A DNA stretch of 46,079 bases. Origin: a virus. Shown in pieces: positions 3,598 to 25,185 of the stretch (the stretch's first letter is position 1; each line of letters starts with the position of its first letter). Made by a program: the position numbers and the translations under genes. The notes beneath the pieces were generated by a model. That model saw nothing but the letters and a program-made list of their open reading frames with translations. It did no database searches and had not been told where the DNA came from. The DNA lies in IMG/VR virus record IMGVR_UViG_3300020156_000446, positions 1-46,079 of that record. One strand, 5' to 3'.

Positions 3598-4623
3598 TTA
3601 GCCCTCCCCGCCAGTCGGTGCCGGCGGCGTGGGGAGGGGCGCGAACCTGCCGTCATCGAACTCGGCAGCCGGGCGGACCCACACGCGGCCGTTGGCGTCG
3701 TCGTAGACCACGACCGGCGACAGGTCGGCCTCCAGTTCGGCGCGCGTGATGACCCGGTACAGGCCGCCCTTGCGGTGCTGGTGCGTCGGCCTCCACCCCT
3801 GCTGTCCCTGCTGCGACAGGGCGGCGTCGGAGGCTGCCAGCTGGCGGATCTCGGCGGCGATGCCGGCCTTGTCGACAAGCCACATGCTCGGCGCCTGAAT
3901 GGTCGGCAGCGACCAGTTTTCGACAATGCGGGCCGCCTTCTCCAGCGCCTCCCGCACCGCCGTCCATGCCGGCGCAGGCTGCGGGAGCGACGACAGGGCA
4001 GGCGCCTCCGGCAACGGGCTGCCCTTCGGCTTGGCGGCCTGCTTGGCGCGGATCTGCTCCACCTTTGTCCAGATGCGGGCGAGTTCGGTTTCGGCCGCCG
4101 CGTGCATGTCGAGGCCCTGGGCCAGACACAGCGCGGCGAGCGTCACCATCACGCCGCCGACTTCCTGGGCCTTCTCGCCGACCGGCCGGCCGTAAACGTA
4201 TTCGACCAGCTGGTGCGCTTCGTCCTTCGTGCAGCCGCAGGCCTGCACCAGTTCCAACGCCTCCTCCAGGAAGCGATGGTTGCGCTCCACCGTGTCGGCG
4301 GCGATCTCGGGGCCAAAGCACGCCAGCATCCACGGCTGCACGCGGGACTGGAACGGCCACAACTCCTCGGCTCGCACCGCCGCCCCCGTATCGGAGGGAG
4401 TGGCGGACGGAGTGGCGTCGTCGCGACGGTTCCATCCGGCAGTGGCCGATTTGCCGGACTGGTCGAAATTGTCTCCGGCCATCTCGGCCAAGCACACGCC
4501 GCAACGGACGACAGGATAGGCCCGGTCGAGCGGGTCATAGCGTGACCTCTCGGTGCAGGTGGGCAGGTACAGCTTGGCCGCATCGCCGCCGCAGAACGGG
4601 CAGGGCTTGAGGTTGTCGGTCAT
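3598..4623 (-). CDS. Lar-like zinc ribbon, MazG-like and DUF1653-like fusion protein
   Basis: 341 aa, with the start chosen at MTDNLKPCPFCGGDAAKLYL; the longer frame upstream has shadow composition. Three modules can be read. Residues 1-70 form a CPFCGG...C..C...WN-R zinc ribbon of the Lar/restriction-alleviation type. Residues 90-210 look like a MazG-family nucleotide pyrophosphohydrolase (FLEEALELVQA, then an ExxE-like helix and EVGGVMVTLAAL). Residues 290-341 (GLYRVITRAELEADLSPVVVYDD...VWVRPAAEFDDGRF) match the DUF1653 pattern. Such a protein could adjust nucleotide pools and counter host defence. The family assignments are by motif only. It lies in the early-left operon. Confidence 0.7.
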   Translation of the reverse strand: MTDNLKPCPFCGGDAAKLYLPTCTERSRYDPLDRAYPVVRCGVCLAEMAGDNFDQSGKSATAGWNRRDDATPSATPSDTGAAVRAEELWPFQSRVQPWMLACFGPEIAADTVERNHRFLEEALELVQACGCTKDEAHQLVEYVYGRPVGEKAQEVGGVMVTLAALCLAQGLDMHAAAETELARIWTKVEQIRAKQAAKPKGSPLPEAPALSSLPQPAPAWTAVREALEKAARIVENWSLPTIQAPSMWLVDKAGIAAEIRQLAASDAALSQQGQQGWRPTHQHRKGGLYRVITRAELEADLSPVVVYDDANGRVWVRPAAEFDDGRFAPLPTPPAPTGGEG

Positions 4624-10235: not shown

Positions 10236-10664
10236 TCAAAGCCCCCCCTCTGTCTCGTCCTTTACTAAAAGCCGAATACCTGACGTAACGAGACACAGCC
10301 CGCTTTTTGCGTCGCGTACGATAATGGTTTTTCTTCCGAAATACCTGTACTCAATGCCAATTACGCTAACGGCATCATCTTTGATGGGTCGATCAAGTAA
10401 TAATTCAATCTGACTAAACTGAATTGGTTCGCTTCCGAATAATGATAGTGGCCCCGCGTCAGCTGCATTACGTGAAGCCTCACGCCTATCCTCCTGCGCT
10501 TTTATTTTAGCATTCTCATTAGCTATGACGTGGGAGGCCAAATTGATCATATCGCCGCCGGATAGGCACTCCGCCGAGAGCACGCCGCGCGCCTCCTGCG
10601 CCAAGAGGGGAATGACCAACGCCATCGACGCGATTTGGATCCCGAGCAGTCGCCCCCAGCGCAT
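10236..10664 (-). CDS. small exported protein co-transcribed with repressor
   Basis: 142 aa with an N-terminal signal-like segment (MRWGRLLGIQIASMALVIPL) and two cysteines in the mature part (AECLSGG and GLCLVT) that could form a disulfide. AGGGGGATGA precedes the ATG. It starts 12 bp after the repressor stop, the position of the rex genes in lambda, so it should be expressed in the lysogen from the repressor promoter. Its DNA between about 10230 and 10540 is clearly more AT-rich than all surrounding genes, a sign of recent acquisition. No family recognised; superinfection exclusion is a hypothesis. Confidence 0.65.
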   Translation of the reverse strand: MRWGRLLGIQIASMALVIPLLAQEARGVLSAECLSGGDMINLASHVIANENAKIKAQEDRREASRNAADAGPLSLFGSEPIQFSQIELLLDRPIKDDAVSVIGIEYRYFGRKTIIVRDAKSGLCLVTSGIRLLVKDETEGGL

Positions 10665-10675
10665 TCATCCCCCTG

Positions 10676-11368
10676 TCACACTCTCCGCCCAAGCCACAGG
10701 ACGCGCCCGATCACATCAACCGTATCCGGGTCGATACCCTCCCAGGTCGGGTAAGCCGGGTTGTCCGAGATGATCGTCAGCGTGTTGTCGCGCGGGCTGA
10801 TCGCGATGCGCTTCACCTGCAGTTCGTCCCCGCGCCGAATGCCGTAAATGCCGTCACGCTGGGGCTGTCTGCTCAGCAGGTGGATCAGCACCTGATCCCC
10901 GCTGCGCAGCGTAGGCTCCATCGAATCGCCATCTACCTGCGCCAGCATCAGATGCCCCAGGTCGGCGTTCGTGATCGAGCGAAGCCACTGGAAACGCGCG
11001 GGCTCGAAGTAGAGCGGCGTCCCGTCGCCCTCGGTCCAGGCGCCGGGGCCGGCTGAAAGCCGAAGGTCGTAGACCGGGAGGAGCGCGTACTCCTCGCCAG
11101 CAATCGTGACGACGCGCCCTTCGGGGGCCTTCGCGACCGGGGCTTGATCCATCTTTTTCGGCACCGCCTTAAACTGATCAGGCGGAACGCCGAAGTGCCG
11201 GCCAAGTTCCTCGCGCACATCTTCCGGCAAGTTCCGCGGGCTCCCGCGTTTGATGAACTGCTGCAAGTAGGCGTGGTTGCGACCGATCGATTCGGAAACC
11301 GTCTTCAGGTCGGTTTCGCGGTCGGCGATCAGTTCCAAAAGGCGTAGGCGAGGCGGGTCAAGCTCCAT
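10676..11368 (-). CDS. CI-like repressor with S24/LexA peptidase domain
   Basis: 230 aa starting MELDPPRLRLLELIADRETD. An N-terminal helix-turn-helix (about 10-65: LKTVSESIGRNHAYLQQFIK) is joined to a LexA/CI-type domain. The autocleavage bond is likely A106-G107 in RLSAGPG, the nucleophile S149 in GDSMEPT and the general base K186 in LQVKRI. It should hold the prophage silent and be inactivated by RecA after DNA damage. Operators lie directly upstream and, 2 kb away, at PL. The start codon is adjoined by a hairpin that can cover its ribosome-binding site. All key residues are present. Confidence 0.93.
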   Translation of the reverse strand: MELDPPRLRLLELIADRETDLKTVSESIGRNHAYLQQFIKRGSPRNLPEDVREELGRHFGVPPDQFKAVPKKMDQAPVAKAPEGRVVTIAGEEYALLPVYDLRLSAGPGAWTEGDGTPLYFEPARFQWLRSITNADLGHLMLAQVDGDSMEPTLRSGDQVLIHLLSRQPQRDGIYGIRRGDELQVKRIAISPRDNTLTIISDNPAYPTWEGIDPDTVDVIGRVLWLGRRV

Positions 11369-11385
11369 GGGGAGGCATGCTCCCC
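11369..11385 (-). promoter_or_regulatory. hairpin covering repressor ribosome-binding site
   Basis: On the repressor mRNA, GGGGAG and CTCCCC form a 6-bp stem around CATGC, ending one base before the AUG. GGGGAG is the only Shine-Dalgarno-like sequence in front of the gene, so the hairpin would hide it. It may keep repressor translation low. Pairing is exact; function is inferred. Confidence 0.5.
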
Positions 11386-11390
11386 GAACG

Positions 11391-11444
11391 TATAGGAAAT
11401 CTCCAATAGGAAGTGTCCGCTTGACCGATATGGAGTTTCCTATT
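11391..11444. promoter_or_regulatory. right operators (three sites) between repressor and Cro-like genes
   Basis: The sites are TATAGG-AAATCT-CCAATA (11391-11408), AATAGG-AAGTGT-CCGCTT (11405-11422) and, read on the minus strand, AATAGG-AAACTC-CATATC (11444-11427). They share AATAGGAA with the two left operators. Three sites in a divergent promoter region repeat the lambda OR layout. The first overlaps TATACG (minus strand, 11394-11389), the likely -10 of the repressor promoter. Confidence 0.7.
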
Positions 11445-11449
11445 AACGT
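11421..11449 (+). promoter_or_regulatory. early-right promoter PR
   Basis: TTGACC at 11421-11426 is followed at 17 bp by TAACGT (11444-11449), or at 14 bp by TATTAA (11441-11446). The third right operator fills the spacer, so repressor binding would block it. A start around 11456 would leave only a few bases before the Cro-like ATG at 11460, which has no ribosome-binding site, so a leaderless or nearly leaderless mRNA is likely. Confidence 0.55.
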
Positions 11450-11459
11450 CCTATCTGCC

Positions 11460-11690
11460 ATGACCATGACACACGATCCCATTCTGGAAGACGTCGAGCG
11501 CTACCTCGCGCAGAGCGGGTTGACGCCGACCGCGTTCGGGAAGGCCGCACTCGGCGACCCGAAGTTCGTCTTTGATCTGCGCGACGGTCGCGAGTGCCGA
11601 CGCGCCACTAGGGAGCGGGCGCGCGCCTTCATGCACGCGAACCCGCCCGGCGCGGCCCAGCCGCCGCCCGCTCAAGCCGCCGCGGAGTAG
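11460..11690 (+). CDS. Cro-like small HTH protein
   Basis: 76 aa from MTMTHDPILEDVERYLAQSG; an alternative start lies 6 bp downstream. The stretch LTPTAFGKAALGDPKFVFDLRDGRECRRATRERARAFM fits a small helix-turn-helix group common beside repressors in alphaproteobacterial prophages. It is the first gene rightward of the operators and is expected to act on them opposite to the CI-like repressor. The C-terminus (PPGAAQPPPAQAAAE) is low-complexity. No ribosome-binding site precedes the start, which lies about 10 bp past PR. Confidence 0.75.
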   Translation: MTMTHDPILEDVERYLAQSGLTPTAFGKAALGDPKFVFDLRDGRECRRATRERARAFMHANPPGAAQPPPAQAAAE

Positions 11691-11963: not shown

Positions 11964-12434
11964 ATGGCTGCTGCCTCTCAGCTGTCGTTGTTGCCGGCCC
12001 ATGTGCCGGCCCAGGTGGTCAGGATCGCGGCGCCCGTGCAGGCTGCCTTGTTCGGCCCCGATGAGCTACAGCCTGCCGCCAAGCCGGCCGTGGACGAAAT
12101 TGCGAATTCTGACCTCGAATTTCACGGTCCGCGCGCATCGAAGGAGGAGCGGGCCGAACGGCTGCCCGTGATCCTGCGCAAGCTGCTGGTGCTGGAGGGC
12201 TCCCGCAGCCTCACCAAGCAGCTGCTGCGCCTGCTGGAGCAGAAGACCGGCCGCCGGTACGTGGAGCGGACCGTGCGCGGCTGGTTCGACGGCCGGGAGC
12301 CCGAGGCGGACGCCTGGGAGGATCTGCAGCTGATCTTCGGCCGGGGCCTGCGCGCCTACGTCTACTACCCGGAATCACCCGAGGCCCGCGCGTGGTGGGC
12401 GGACGTCTACCAGCGCGCCGGGGGTGCCCGGTGA
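11964..12434 (+). CDS. hypothetical protein, possible DNA-binding, 156 aa
   Basis: Starts MAAASQLSLLPAHVPAQVVR after GGGGGTCTGTGAC. The first 60 residues are low-complexity; the C-terminal two-thirds are helical, with SLTKQLLRLLEQKTGRRYVE followed by RTVRGWFDGREPEADAWEDL, which reads like a helix-turn-helix with a recognition helix (ERTVRGWFDG). It could regulate early or late genes. It is coupled to the next gene by a GTGA overlap. Confidence 0.55.
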   Translation: MAAASQLSLLPAHVPAQVVRIAAPVQAALFGPDELQPAAKPAVDEIANSDLEFHGPRASKEERAERLPVILRKLLVLEGSRSLTKQLLRLLEQKTGRRYVERTVRGWFDGREPEADAWEDLQLIFGRGLRAYVYYPESPEARAWWADVYQRAGGAR

Positions 12435-12724
12435 GCCGCTCGACCGTCACGCCGCTCGACCGTCACGCCGCGCATCGCCTGCGCCAGCGATACGGCCTCG
12501 ACCTGACCGACGCCATGAAGGGCGAGATCTTCGCCCACATCGAAGCCGCCCGCCGCGCCGGTGGCCGCTCCCCGCTCGCCTGCATCATCGAGGCCCAGCC
12601 CAACCACCGGGAACGCTGGATCGTCAGCGTCGGCGGCACCGTGGTGCAGGTCGTCGTGCCGGCCGCCGTGCTCATCACCTTCCTGCCCCTCAACGCCGGG
12701 CCTCTGCCCGCCAACCAGCCGTGA
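12431..12724 (+). CDS. hypothetical protein, 97 aa, GTG start
   Basis: Starts at a GTG overlapping the upstream stop, giving (M)SRSTVTPLDRHAAHRLRQRY. The sequence LRQRYGLDLTDAMKGEIFAH followed by ERWIVSVGGTVVQVVVPAAVLITFL suggests a helix then several strands. Similar small proteins occur in phage early regions, but I cannot name the family. It is translationally coupled to the gene before it. Confidence 0.55.
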   Translation: MSRSTVTPLDRHAAHRLRQRYGLDLTDAMKGEIFAHIEAARRAGGRSPLACIIEAQPNHRERWIVSVGGTVVQVVVPAAVLITFLPLNAGPLPANQP

Positions 12725-17412: not shown

Positions 17413-17640
17413 TCATTTCGGCCGCGGCGCGACCACACCGCGTTTCGCCGCCGGCACCATCTCGAACAGCTTCAGGAACGGCCCGACCCACAGCGGCGGG
17501 CCGTTGCCGTCTTCGGCAGCCCACCGGCACACCGTCACCTCGTGCGCCCCCGTCATCAGCCCGAACACCTTGTTGGACAGCCCCAGGCGCCGCAACGCCG
17601 CGCGGAACTCAGCGCCGCTCATCGGATCAGGCCCCGACAT
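17413..17640 (-). CDS. small HTH regulator at early/late boundary
   Basis: 75 aa starting MSGPDPMSGAEFRAALRRLG after GAGGGGGCG. LSNKVFGLMTGAHEVTVCRW is a typical helix-turn-helix, followed by AAEDGNGPPLWVGPFLKLFE. It lies alone on the minus strand between the early-right operon and the late genes. Upstream are a late-type promoter element facing it and two perfect palindromes over that promoter, which suggests that the protein represses its own gene and perhaps others. It is the best candidate regulator of the late switch, though whether it activates late promoters cannot be read from the sequence. Confidence 0.75.
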   Translation of the reverse strand: MSGPDPMSGAEFRAALRRLGLSNKVFGLMTGAHEVTVCRWAAEDGNGPPLWVGPFLKLFEMVPAAKRGVVAPRPK

Positions 17641-17652
17641 CGCCCCCTCGCA

Positions 17653-17690
17653 TTAGCACACGGCTAAGCTGGCACTTAGCGAGCGGCTAA
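17653..17690. promoter_or_regulatory. TTAGC-N5-GCTAA operator pair
   Basis: Two perfect 15-bp palindromes, TTAGC-ACACG-GCTAA (17653-17667) and TTAGC-GAGCG-GCTAA (17676-17690), are 23 bp apart start to start, about two helical turns. Half-sites follow at 17711 (TTAGC) and 17740 (GCTAA). They overlap both core elements of the minus-strand promoter at 17667-17701. The natural ligand is the HTH protein encoded immediately downstream. Confidence 0.75.
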
Positions 17691-17701
17691 CCCAACGCAC
17701 G
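17667..17701 (-). promoter_or_regulatory. late-type promoter element H (minus strand)
   Basis: Read on the minus strand: CGTGCG-TTGGGT, then 17 bp, then CCAGCT. It has the upstream 10-mer CGTGCGTTGG exactly and one change in the second element (CCA for GCA). It ends about 26 bp before the HTH gene start, leaving room for a leader with a ribosome-binding site. It is the only member facing left. Confidence 0.6.
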
Positions 17702-17864
17702 AGCCGCCGATTAGCATCCTGTAGAGCCCCCGACAGATTGCTAATTCCGCCCTCGCTGGACCCGTTGGAAACCCTGGCCCAAATGCGTGTCCCTTGACAC
17801 GCCCCCAGCCCATCCATCACCCTCGCGCGCCCGTCTCCCCCACAGCGACCGCTCCGCAAGCCTC

Positions 17865-17899
17865 CGTGCGTTGCCACGCGCGCACCCGCCGCCGCACCC
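17865..17899 (+). promoter_or_regulatory. late promoter element G (terminase)
   Basis: CGTGCG-TTGCCA, 17 bp, GCACCC, then TCGCGGCC and the ATG of the small terminase gene at 17908. The element differs from the consensus by one base in TTGG. No ribosome-binding site stands before the ATG, so the transcript may be leaderless. The remaining region 17702-17864 holds half-operators but no gene that I can support. Confidence 0.65.
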
Positions 17900-17907
17900 T
17901 CGCGGCC

Positions 17908-18468
17908 ATGAGCGACGCACCCACCACCTCCGAACGCCTCGACCTGCCAGACCACGCCGCGCCGGCCCGCATCGGCCGCCCGCCCGTCTGGACGCCCGAG
18001 CGCATCGCCGAGGCGCAGGTAGCCATCCTCAACCACATCGCCGACGGCCGCTCGATCCGCCGCATCTGCGCCATGGACGACATGCCGGCGTGGGAGACGG
18101 TGCGTCGTTGGCTCCGTGATGACGTTGCGTTCGCAGCACAGTACGCGCGCGCCCGTGAGGCCGCCGCCGACCAGCTGGCGGCCCGCGTGGTCGACATCGC
18201 CGAGGACGTGGCCGACGGCAAGCTGGACGCCCAGGCAGGCCGGGCAGCCATCGACGGGCTGAAGTGGGCCGCCTCCAAGCTGAACGCCCGCGTGTACGGC
18301 GACCGCCTGGACCTGAACGCGAACGTCAACGTGACTGGGCAGGTGGCCGGCTACATCATCGACCTGAGGCCCGACGACGGGCGGACAGCAGTCCTCGATG
18401 GGACAGCGGTCCAGGCTGATGCAGCGCTCCCCGCGCCCACCGACCTACCAGATGTGGTGGCGGAATGA
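17908..18468 (+). CDS. terminase small subunit
   Basis: 186 aa starting MSDAPTTSERLDLPDHAAPA. ARIGRPPVWTPERIAEAQVA, RSIRRICAMDDMPAWETVRR and WLRDDVAFAAQYARAREAAA form the DNA-binding helical domain typical of Sf6-type small terminases; AARVVDIAEDVADGKLDAQA follows. It recognises the packaging site and regulates the large subunit. The start immediately follows a late promoter element and lacks a ribosome-binding site. The large subunit is encoded 775 bp downstream, after a GC-rich stretch and a kinase-like gene. Confidence 0.85.
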   Translation: MSDAPTTSERLDLPDHAAPARIGRPPVWTPERIAEAQVAILNHIADGRSIRRICAMDDMPAWETVRRWLRDDVAFAAQYARAREAAADQLAARVVDIAEDVADGKLDAQAGRAAIDGLKWAASKLNARVYGDRLDLNANVNVTGQVAGYIIDLRPDDGRTAVLDGTAVQADAALPAPTDLPDVVAE

Positions 18469-21000: not shown

Positions 21001-21470
21001 TCACTGAGTGGCACGTCGCGTTCTTCGACCGGCCCGGCCCGACGTTCTGGTGGGACACCTTCACCCGGCCGGGCTTCCGGCACGTCATGGCCTTCGGCTT
21101 CGACCCGGACGCGCGGGTGTGGCTGTTCTACGACCCGGCCCTGCAGGGCACCACCGTGGACGCCATGGCGCCCGACGCGGCCGGGAAGCTGATCACCGGC
21201 ATCACCCACGCGGCGACGGCGATCCTGCGCTGCAAGCCCGCGGCGGAGACGGGGCGGCTGCCGCGCATCGGCTTCTGGTGCGTGCCGGCCATCTGCCACC
21301 TGCTGGGCTACCGGCCGCCGCTGGCCCGTGCGTTGGCCCCGTACCCCTTCTACCAGCACCTTCTCGACCGAGGATGCCAGCCATCGTTCGAGAGGGTGCG
21401 AGATGAGTTTCGGCGGGGGCGGGTCGCCGCCCGAGGAGGATCCGGCGGTGAAGGAGGCGCGGCAGCGTGA
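20997..21470 (+). CDS. hypothetical protein, 157 aa (Cys/His pattern)
   Basis: Starts MITEWHVAFFDRPGPTFWWD. FRHVMAFGFDPDARVWLFYD and IGFWCVPAICHLLGYRPPLA recall small phage proteins with a papain-like cysteine-containing helix, found near terminase and portal genes, but I cannot confirm a peptidase. It overlaps the terminase stop by 4 bp. Its C-terminal 22 residues (RRGRVAARGGSGGEGGAAA-like) overlap the next gene by 68 bp and look low-complexity, so the functional part probably ends near residue 130. A late promoter element lies inside the gene. Confidence 0.6.
   Translation: MITEWHVAFFDRPGPTFWWDTFTRPGFRHVMAFGFDPDARVWLFYDPALQGTTVDAMAPDAAGKLITGITHAATAILRCKPAAETGRLPRIGFWCVPAICHLLGYRPPLARALAPYPFYQHLLDRGCQPSFERVRDEFRRGRVAARGGSGGEGGAAA
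21327..21361 (+). promoter_or_regulatory. late promoter element F, inside coding sequence
   Basis: CGTGCG-TTGGCC, 17 bp, GCACCT, wholly inside the 157-aa gene and ending 41 bp before the ATG of the 69-aa gene at 21403, which is followed by the portal gene. All ten bases of the upstream consensus are present. It would give the portal group its own transcript. Confidence 0.6.
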
Positions 21471-24243: not shown

Positions 24244-25185
24244 ATGCCGCTCGATACCCTGCGCACGATCGCTCTGGAAAAGAGCAAGAAGCAGCCGAAG
24301 CAGATCGACCACCTCACCGAAGAGGCGCCGATCCTGAACGCCGTCCCCTTCGCGTCCACGACCCACGACATGTGGCACGTGGCCGAGGAGGTGACCTCTG
24401 CCGACACCATCGGCTTCGTCGCGATGGACGCGCCGCTGCCGGCCGTGGATTCCAGCACGAAGCTGATCCGCTTCGATCTGGCGAAGATGGGCGGCCTGAT
24501 GGAAGTGGGCGAGGACAAGGCCCGCCAGTACGGCGGCAAGGAGAAGTACTTCGCCGACCGCACCGGCCCGGTGCTGAAGATGACCGGCATGAACACCGAG
24601 AAGGTCATCGTGTACGACAACCTGCGCCAGTACGCCATCGACCAGTTCAAGGCCGGCAAGACCACCAAGACCATCTACGACGCGGGCGGCACCGGGTCGG
24701 CCAACTACAGCATCGTCGCCGTCCGGTTCGAGGAGGGCGTGTGCTCGGGCCTCTACAACCCGGCCGGCTTCGGCAGCGGGACGATGTTCGACACGCAGCC
24801 GATCAACGGCGGCCAGCTCTACAAGAACTCCGACGGCGTGCTGGTCTACGGTGTCCGCATGAAGTGCGACCTGGGCTTCCAGCTGACGGGCGTGCGCAAC
24901 GTCGGCGCCATCGTCAACATCGACCCGGCCAACAGCAAGGTGCCGACCGCGACGCAGATCGACGACCTGCTGGCCGACATTCGCGCCACCGATTCCGGCC
25001 GCACGATGCTCTTCATGCACACCCGCGTGAAGAACCTGCTGTGTCGCACGTTCAAGGACGGCCGCGTGCAGATGCGCCCGGCCGACAAGATCATCGACCG
25101 CCAGCTGGAGGCGTGGGGCGGCGTGCCGTTCATGACCTCCTACAACATGTACGACGGCTCCGAAGCTCGCGTCGTCCTGTCCTAA
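24244..25185 (+). CDS. major capsid protein
   Basis: 313 aa starting MPLDTLRTIALEKSKKQPKQ, with CGGAGCCCGGCA before the ATG. LTEEAPILNAVPFASTTHDM, VGEDKARQYGGKEKYFADRT and VPFMTSYNMYDGSEARVVLS at the C-terminus fit the capsid proteins of BPP-1-like podoviruses, predicted to have the HK97 fold. It lies between scaffold and cement genes. It should be one of the most abundant virion proteins. Confidence 0.87.
   Translation: MPLDTLRTIALEKSKKQPKQIDHLTEEAPILNAVPFASTTHDMWHVAEEVTSADTIGFVAMDAPLPAVDSSTKLIRFDLAKMGGLMEVGEDKARQYGGKEKYFADRTGPVLKMTGMNTEKVIVYDNLRQYAIDQFKAGKTTKTIYDAGGTGSANYSIVAVRFEEGVCSGLYNPAGFGSGTMFDTQPINGGQLYKNSDGVLVYGVRMKCDLGFQLTGVRNVGAIVNIDPANSKVPTATQIDDLLADIRATDSGRTMLFMHTRVKNLLCRTFKDGRVQMRPADKIIDRQLEAWGGVPFMTSYNMYDGSEARVVLS

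Follow-up and report, generated by a model that had tools for sequence, protein, structure and literature searches.

A small HTH gene with its own putative operators, apparently exchanged as one cassette, between the replication and packaging genes of Azospirillum-type prophages

The HTH gene and its promoter

The DNA analysed, called the window below, is the whole stretch of 46,079 bp of IMG/VR record IMGVR_UViG_3300020156_000446. A simple gene model together with PHROGs places a minus-strand HTH gene after the helicase gene and before TerS and TerL, and thus at the border between the replication genes and the packaging genes (Table 1). The gene occupies 17413-17640 and encodes the protein P0001, to which an earlier interpretation made from the letters alone (the sequence-only reading) gave 75 aa; homologues suggest that its start codon may be the second ATG (17622), for a protein of 69 aa, instead of the one at 17640. 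P0001 was considered as the CI repressor and rejected, since a separate gene matches CI, and P0001 has 75 aa and sites only at its own late-class promoter. Near the CI-like gene, two TTAGC half-sites lie 12 bp apart, at 10507 and 10519.

Table 1. Coordinates of the features discussed (window positions unless another contig is named; operator positions of types I to IV are relative to the GTGCGTT box)
Feature	Position	Strand	Remarks
Integrase	1004-2113		gene model and PHROGs
Excisionase	2097-2363		gene model and PHROGs
Exonuclease VIII-like gene	6313-7260		gene model and PHROGs
CI-like repressor	10676-11368	minus	candidate immunity repressor of the phage; phrog_4 E 3.1e-30, phrog_6201 E 1.4e-18
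Replication initiator	15066-15884		gene model and PHROGs
DnaB-like helicase	15888-17252		gene model and PHROGs
HTH protein P0001	17413-17640	minus	75 aa; 69 aa if ATG 17622 is the start
Inferred exchangeable cassette (HTH gene, promoter, putative operators)	17413-17748	minus	alignment
Putative operator O1, TTAGC-N5-GCTAA	17653-17667		over -10 end and expected start
CAGCTT, -10-like hexamer of HTH promoter	17666-17671	minus	22 bp after GTGCGTT
Putative operator O2, TTAGC-N5-GCTAA	17676-17690		in promoter spacer
GTGCGTT box of HTH promoter (element H)	17694-17700	minus	upstream element
TTAGC half-site	17711-17715
GCTAA half-site, outermost	17740-17744		split inverted pair with 17711, gap 24
GTGCGTT box of TerS promoter	17866-17872	plus	CACCCT 17895-17900, ATG 17908
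Terminase small subunit (TerS)	17908-18468	plus	phrog_1482 E 1.8e-34, Pfam Sf6_terminase E 1.3e-30, both computed on the longer ORF 17794-18468
GTGCGTT promoter copies	17866, 21328, 23315, 26153, 37577, 38227, 41782	plus
GTGCGTT promoter copy	17700	minus
Type I (window)	+10 and +33		TTAGC-N5-GCTAA
Type II (G006, L053, G018)	+28; -16 and +14		TGTAGCC-N5-GGCTACA at +28; split pair at -16 and +14
Type III (G001, L049)	-37 or -38 and +19		CGAGTSACTY; third inverted copy in L049
Type IV (G002, L051, L067)	-23 and +7		AACCGGCTGTT at -23, its inverse at +7
Type IV methyl-directed HNH restriction enzyme gene	L018:3062-4183		behind HTH gene, type II prophage

The two perfect TTAGC-N5-GCTAA palindromes that the sequence-only reading had seen over the HTH promoter, with centres 23 bp apart, were confirmed and are far beyond chance. 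They are the only two copies in the 46,079 bp, and nowhere else in the window does the motif occur with one mismatch or fewer. When the upstream 130 bp were shuffled 2000 times with dinucleotides preserved, two copies of one gapped palindrome arose in 2 of the shuffles, and for arms as improbable as TTAGC the expected number of such pairs is 0.0005 (whole window, 69.4% G+C). Two further gapped-palindrome pairs of the window, with GCCGC and TCGGC arms, are to be expected because these arms are G+C-rich. The pair at the HTH promoter is not due to chance. The half-sites announced at 17711 and 17740 are also present, as TTAGC and GCTAA respectively, and 6 of the 16 TTAGC/GCTAA half-sites of the window fall in one 92-bp stretch at this promoter. 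Both palindromes are located between the start of the HTH ORF and the GTGCGTT box: O2 starts 3 bp past the box, inside the promoter spacer, and O1 shares 2 bp with the -10-like hexamer and spans the expected start. In a blind test of the putative operator, the paired motif was also found in five unrelated viral contigs (L068-L072), in none of which tblastn found a gene like that of P0001 (best E 0.17), indicating that the motif alone does not predict P0001 and that other regulators use it too. In L072, two short ORFs (11006-11272 and 11301-11537) flank the paired palindromes, one on each side, the second of which presumably encodes a ribbon-helix-helix protein, to judge by reading.

The HTH promoter is, as judged from its sequence, real as a pattern and a member of a phage-wide class, GTGCGTT-N22-YAnnnT. 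Eight copies of GTGCGTT-N21..23-YAnnnT are present in the window against a mean of 0.2 and a maximum of 2 in shuffles, of which those at 21328 and 23315, inside or just before late ORFs, may partly reflect coding conservation. Copies were found in relatives too, and for G001 (see below) there are 5 against 0.26 in shuffles (maximum 3), with an extra GTGCGTA copy before TerS. The layout of the TerS promoter is the same in relatives, and all nine HTH loci have a GTGCGTT box ahead of the HTH gene, with a box-to-hexamer spacing of 22-23 at the loci other than that of the window. At several copies of the class the ATG lies 6-7 nt past the -10-like hexamer, which suggests leaderless mRNA. A literature search covering listings and the starts of abstracts found no published description of the HTH cassette or of a GTGCGTT phage promoter. 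With a late promoter class in common, the phages of this group offer a direct way to search for their missing late activator, and two early proteins without PHROG match (11964-12434 and 12431-12724), kept in 4 of 4 relatives compared, are candidates for it. The approximately 115 bp from the operators to the TerS promoter (17749-17865) hold blocks kept in eight aligned phages, TGTCAAG, GCGCGCGAGG and CAA.GGGT (minus strand), which may be a site for packaging or for a late activator.

Neither the window nor G001 has any minus-strand copy of the class apart from the HTH promoter. For G002, the prophage pieces contain one more match on that strand, within the early region. Since this sole minus-strand late promoter points at dnaB, its firing leftward into the 3' end of the replication operon might shut that operon by transcription interference, the HTH protein trimming the pulse. 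However, the early operon ends carry hairpins of their own in G001 and L051 (by reading), and we consider such a valve very unlikely.

Relatives, HTH types and exchange of the cassette

TerL led to G001 (IMGVR_UViG_3300012802_000001), Azospirillum rugosum (L013 = G002), G006, G018, L048, L049, L051 and L053, with G006 and G018 as two further among 82 genomes of the order. L048 was taken as the same phage as G006, their HTH, TerS and TerL being identical. All eight distinct phages whose TerL are at least 66% identical pairwise (window, G001, G002, G006, G018, L049, L051 and L053) have an HTH gene on the minus strand, located between TerS and the helicase region; L067, which was found through its HTH and not via TerL, completes the nine HTH loci. 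None of eight more distant TerL relatives (L052, L012 and L031-L036) has the gene: the minus strand of L052 (TerL 59%) is without it, and L031-L036 and L012 gave no HTH match (best E 0.14). By tblastn, P0001 finds the HTH genes of G006 (E 4e-8) and G018 (E 3e-6), indicating that the HTH genes are related, and BLASTP with P0004 alone gave no match. Named phages have no match to the region (blastn), to P0001 (tblastn) or to the window protein 24244-25182, and their matches to TerL are distant only. Three contigs found with P0001 as query (L003-L005) were set aside, the match area of L004 being read as an unrelated gene, and the HTH matches L063 and L064 (loose) and L060-L062 (three of one kind) are other regulators.

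When the sites are aligned at the GTGCGTT box, the four SPECIFICITIES differ by HTH type, with one putative operator set each. The identity between HTH proteins is 72-99% within a type and 25-45% between types (L067 was left out of this comparison and assigned to type IV by its sequence). The putative operators of types II-IV were selected post hoc; shuffling one locus at a time gave weak to moderate results, about 0.5-0.7 for the palindrome statistic and 0.005-0.17 for the longest-repeat statistic at the eight non-window loci. The type II split pair around its box has a gap of 23, close to that of the 17711/17740 pair in the window, and in type III, G001 and L049 have retained the sites, with many of the intervening bases changed. 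Four matched HTH/putative-operator pairs, with one fold and at one genomic place, constitute a ready test bed for how small repressors change their DNA specificity.

L048 (type II) and L051 (type IV) have TerL 100%, TerS 97% and HTH 33% identical. Their homology stops at L048:1310/L051:3439 and resumes at 4002 in both (blastn), from where the identity is 96.8% up to the end; within the gap, L048 has a 58-bp piece that matches L051 elsewhere. On the right, the exchange has its edge 10-11 bp beyond the outermost operator arm. As homology resumes just outside the outermost operator, the HTH gene, its promoter and its operators appear to be exchanged as one cassette, with the TerS control region, by the same alignment, outside the exchanged unit. 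The exchange is seen directly for this pair, and the limits of the cassette in the window come from alignment: starting at 17749, 4 bp past the GCTAA half-site, 29 bp are identical to A. rugosum (type IV). These data suggest that a self-repressing regulator for which no partner gene is known can be exchanged as a sealed unit.

Targets of the protein and comparison with known regulators

In the phage DNA examined (prophages in part), each operator type is located only at its own HTH promoter. When whole genomes were scanned with up to one mismatch allowed, G006 and G018 each had the type II palindrome at one place, and G002 had the type IV operator pair at one; G002, itself type IV, also has one loose match to the type II palindrome, with one mismatch. 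As a control, the reversed type II pattern gave 4, 5 and 2 chance matches when one mismatch was allowed; a single place is thus to be read as an absence of further sites and not as enrichment. Operator placement, the lack of other sites, co-variation and exchange give good support to the self-limiting regulator proposed by the sequence-only reading. Its other proposal, a protein timing late transcription, is not supported. A control by P0001 of the TerS operon or of other late promoters as well could be conceived from the position of the HTH gene next to TerS and from the half-sites at 17711 and 17740, which reach toward TerS, and it has a precedent in LfsT, an XRE protein described as acting on phage structural genes including terS (PMC9769523). 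The main doubt comes from the other seven GTGCGTT promoters of the window, none of which has a TTAGC half-site within 80 bp. Moreover, some 120 bp separate the end of the operators from the TerS promoter, the side of which is 97% identical between prophages differing in HTH/operator type and is thus nearly unchanged when the type is swapped. We consider a late-gene timer very unlikely.

The AlphaFold model built from seven HTH sequences has five helices (mean pLDDT 83.2, pTM 0.70). The profile matches are Aca10 (E 1.1e-4), P22 C2 (1.1e-4) and Aca3 (3.2e-4), and VIA-align gave Z scores of 9.0 for SO3848, 8.5 for Aca2, 7.9 for Aca10 (rmsd 1.6 over 57), 7.5 for MqsA, 7.4 for Aca1, 7.1 for HigA2, 6.3 for C.Kpn2I and 4.8 for C.AhdI, values of 7-9 being middling for small helical proteins. 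None of the Foldseek matches reached E <=0.001, and none of the Pfam HTH models matches P0001. Since the matched folds are common HTH arrangements, no function is shown by them.

Aca proteins are described as autorepressors with one or two inverted repeats, one always in the core promoter and the second, similar one upstream or downstream of it (PMC9410906). P0001 resembles them as a small HTH protein (model and matches), by an inverted repeat inside the core promoter, alone or with a second one (sequence pattern), and by having Aca10 as its best named profile and fold match, together with Aca1 and Aca2. In contrast to Aca, whose promoter is a consensus early one, the HTH promoter is of the phage late class, and the HTH cassette is exchanged between four specificities. 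An acr-aca operon was also considered and rejected, the promoter standing directly before the HTH start at all nine loci, so that no acr lies ahead of it.

For the controller proteins of restriction-modification systems, the Kpn2I case offers a comparison for a small HTH protein with palindromes at its own promoter and negative feedback (PMC6237814). The HTH gene shares with it the small HTH protein, the paired palindromes at its own promoter and a proposed negative feedback, and in the type II relatives a restriction gene follows it; it differs in that no methyltransferase/endonuclease pair lies beside it in the window. As to linkage with restriction-modification, nothing is seen beside the gene in the window, and a type IV enzyme gene is present only in the type II relatives. 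The PADLOC Control_protein profile matches P0007 weakly (E 0.0039) and P0001 not at all. A switch in which low amounts of P0001 activate the promoter and high amounts repress it would suit the small HTH protein with paired palindromes, the leaderless-type promoters of types III and IV, the type IV restriction gene downstream in type II and the fold matches to C.Kpn2I and C.AhdI. However, both full sites of the window follow the upstream box, a placement that makes activation unlikely, and the promoter class is common to genes without operators; we regard such a switch as unlikely. From these comparisons, the HTH protein would work like an Aca or a controller protein, but we file it under neither, because the neighbour genes that define these classes were looked for beside it and not found. 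A HigA/MqsA-type antitoxin was set aside as well, the likeness being one of fold and the gene having no same-strand neighbour (toxin) in the window.

In CI/Cro immunity modules, repressor and operators co-vary and move together, and so do the HTH protein and its putative operators. However, the CI-like gene lies elsewhere in this phage and only the HTH gene's own promoter carries sites. Four specificities and the exchange of whole cassettes could point to a second immunity or exclusion locus, at which the protein of a resident prophage represses an incoming cassette of the same type and the types diversify like CI/operator pairs. Against this stand the separate CI-like repressor, the limitation of the repressed genes to the HTH gene and its cargo, and a late-class promoter that may be silent in the lysogen, which leave this locus highly improbable. 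A broader idea, also unlikely though somewhat less so, is that the early/late boundary is a conserved plug-in site of Azospirillum-type prophages where exchangeable one-target repressor cassettes with different specificities would provide an immunity typing separate from CI, diversified because the resident protein silences a same-type incoming cassette and its defence cargo.

Proposed mode of action and cargo

Our preferred reading, to which we give a probability of about three in four, is that P0001 is a small homodimeric HTH repressor whose sole target in the phage would be its own promoter, carried by an exchangeable cassette of at least four specificities with optional cargo. The sites, their placement, the absence of other sites, the co-variation, the exchange and the neighbours are taken from the sequence, and from these we infer the dimer, its binding, the repression, the late timing of the HTH gene's own expression and the control of the cargo. 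As its promoter (GTGCGTT-N22-YAnnnT) is of the late class, the HTH gene would be turned on together with the late genes. The P0001 dimer would then bind the two palindromes, in the promoter spacer and in the -10/start region, and exclude RNA polymerase, so that its own leftward transcript would be capped. Repression by exclusion of polymerase from such sites is presented as proposed and tested for Aca proteins (PMC9410906). Gene, promoter and operators would form one cassette, traded among closely related prophages.

Same-strand cargo in some relatives suggests that the likely task of this repressor is to restrain a small leftward transcription unit offering an optional slot for cargo; in the window this slot is empty. 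In G006 (type II), the HTH gene is followed on the same strand by the gene of a 373-aa HNH protein (Pfam HNH), identified by PADLOC as a type IV methyl-directed restriction enzyme (E 5.4e-24), and G018 and L053 share the low-G+C region of G006 (by reading). The HTH gene of A. rugosum is followed by a resolvase-like ORF, which falls slightly short of the curated Pfam cut-off (E 8.9e-5) and whose possible ATG start overlaps the HTH stop (ATGA, L013:3660-3668). No same-strand cargo was seen after the gene at five of the nine loci (window, G001, L049, L051 and L067), and a role in cargo control is therefore optional at best. Just before the HTH region of G001, the segment L006:1500-2700 reads like a DNA cytosine methyltransferase gene.
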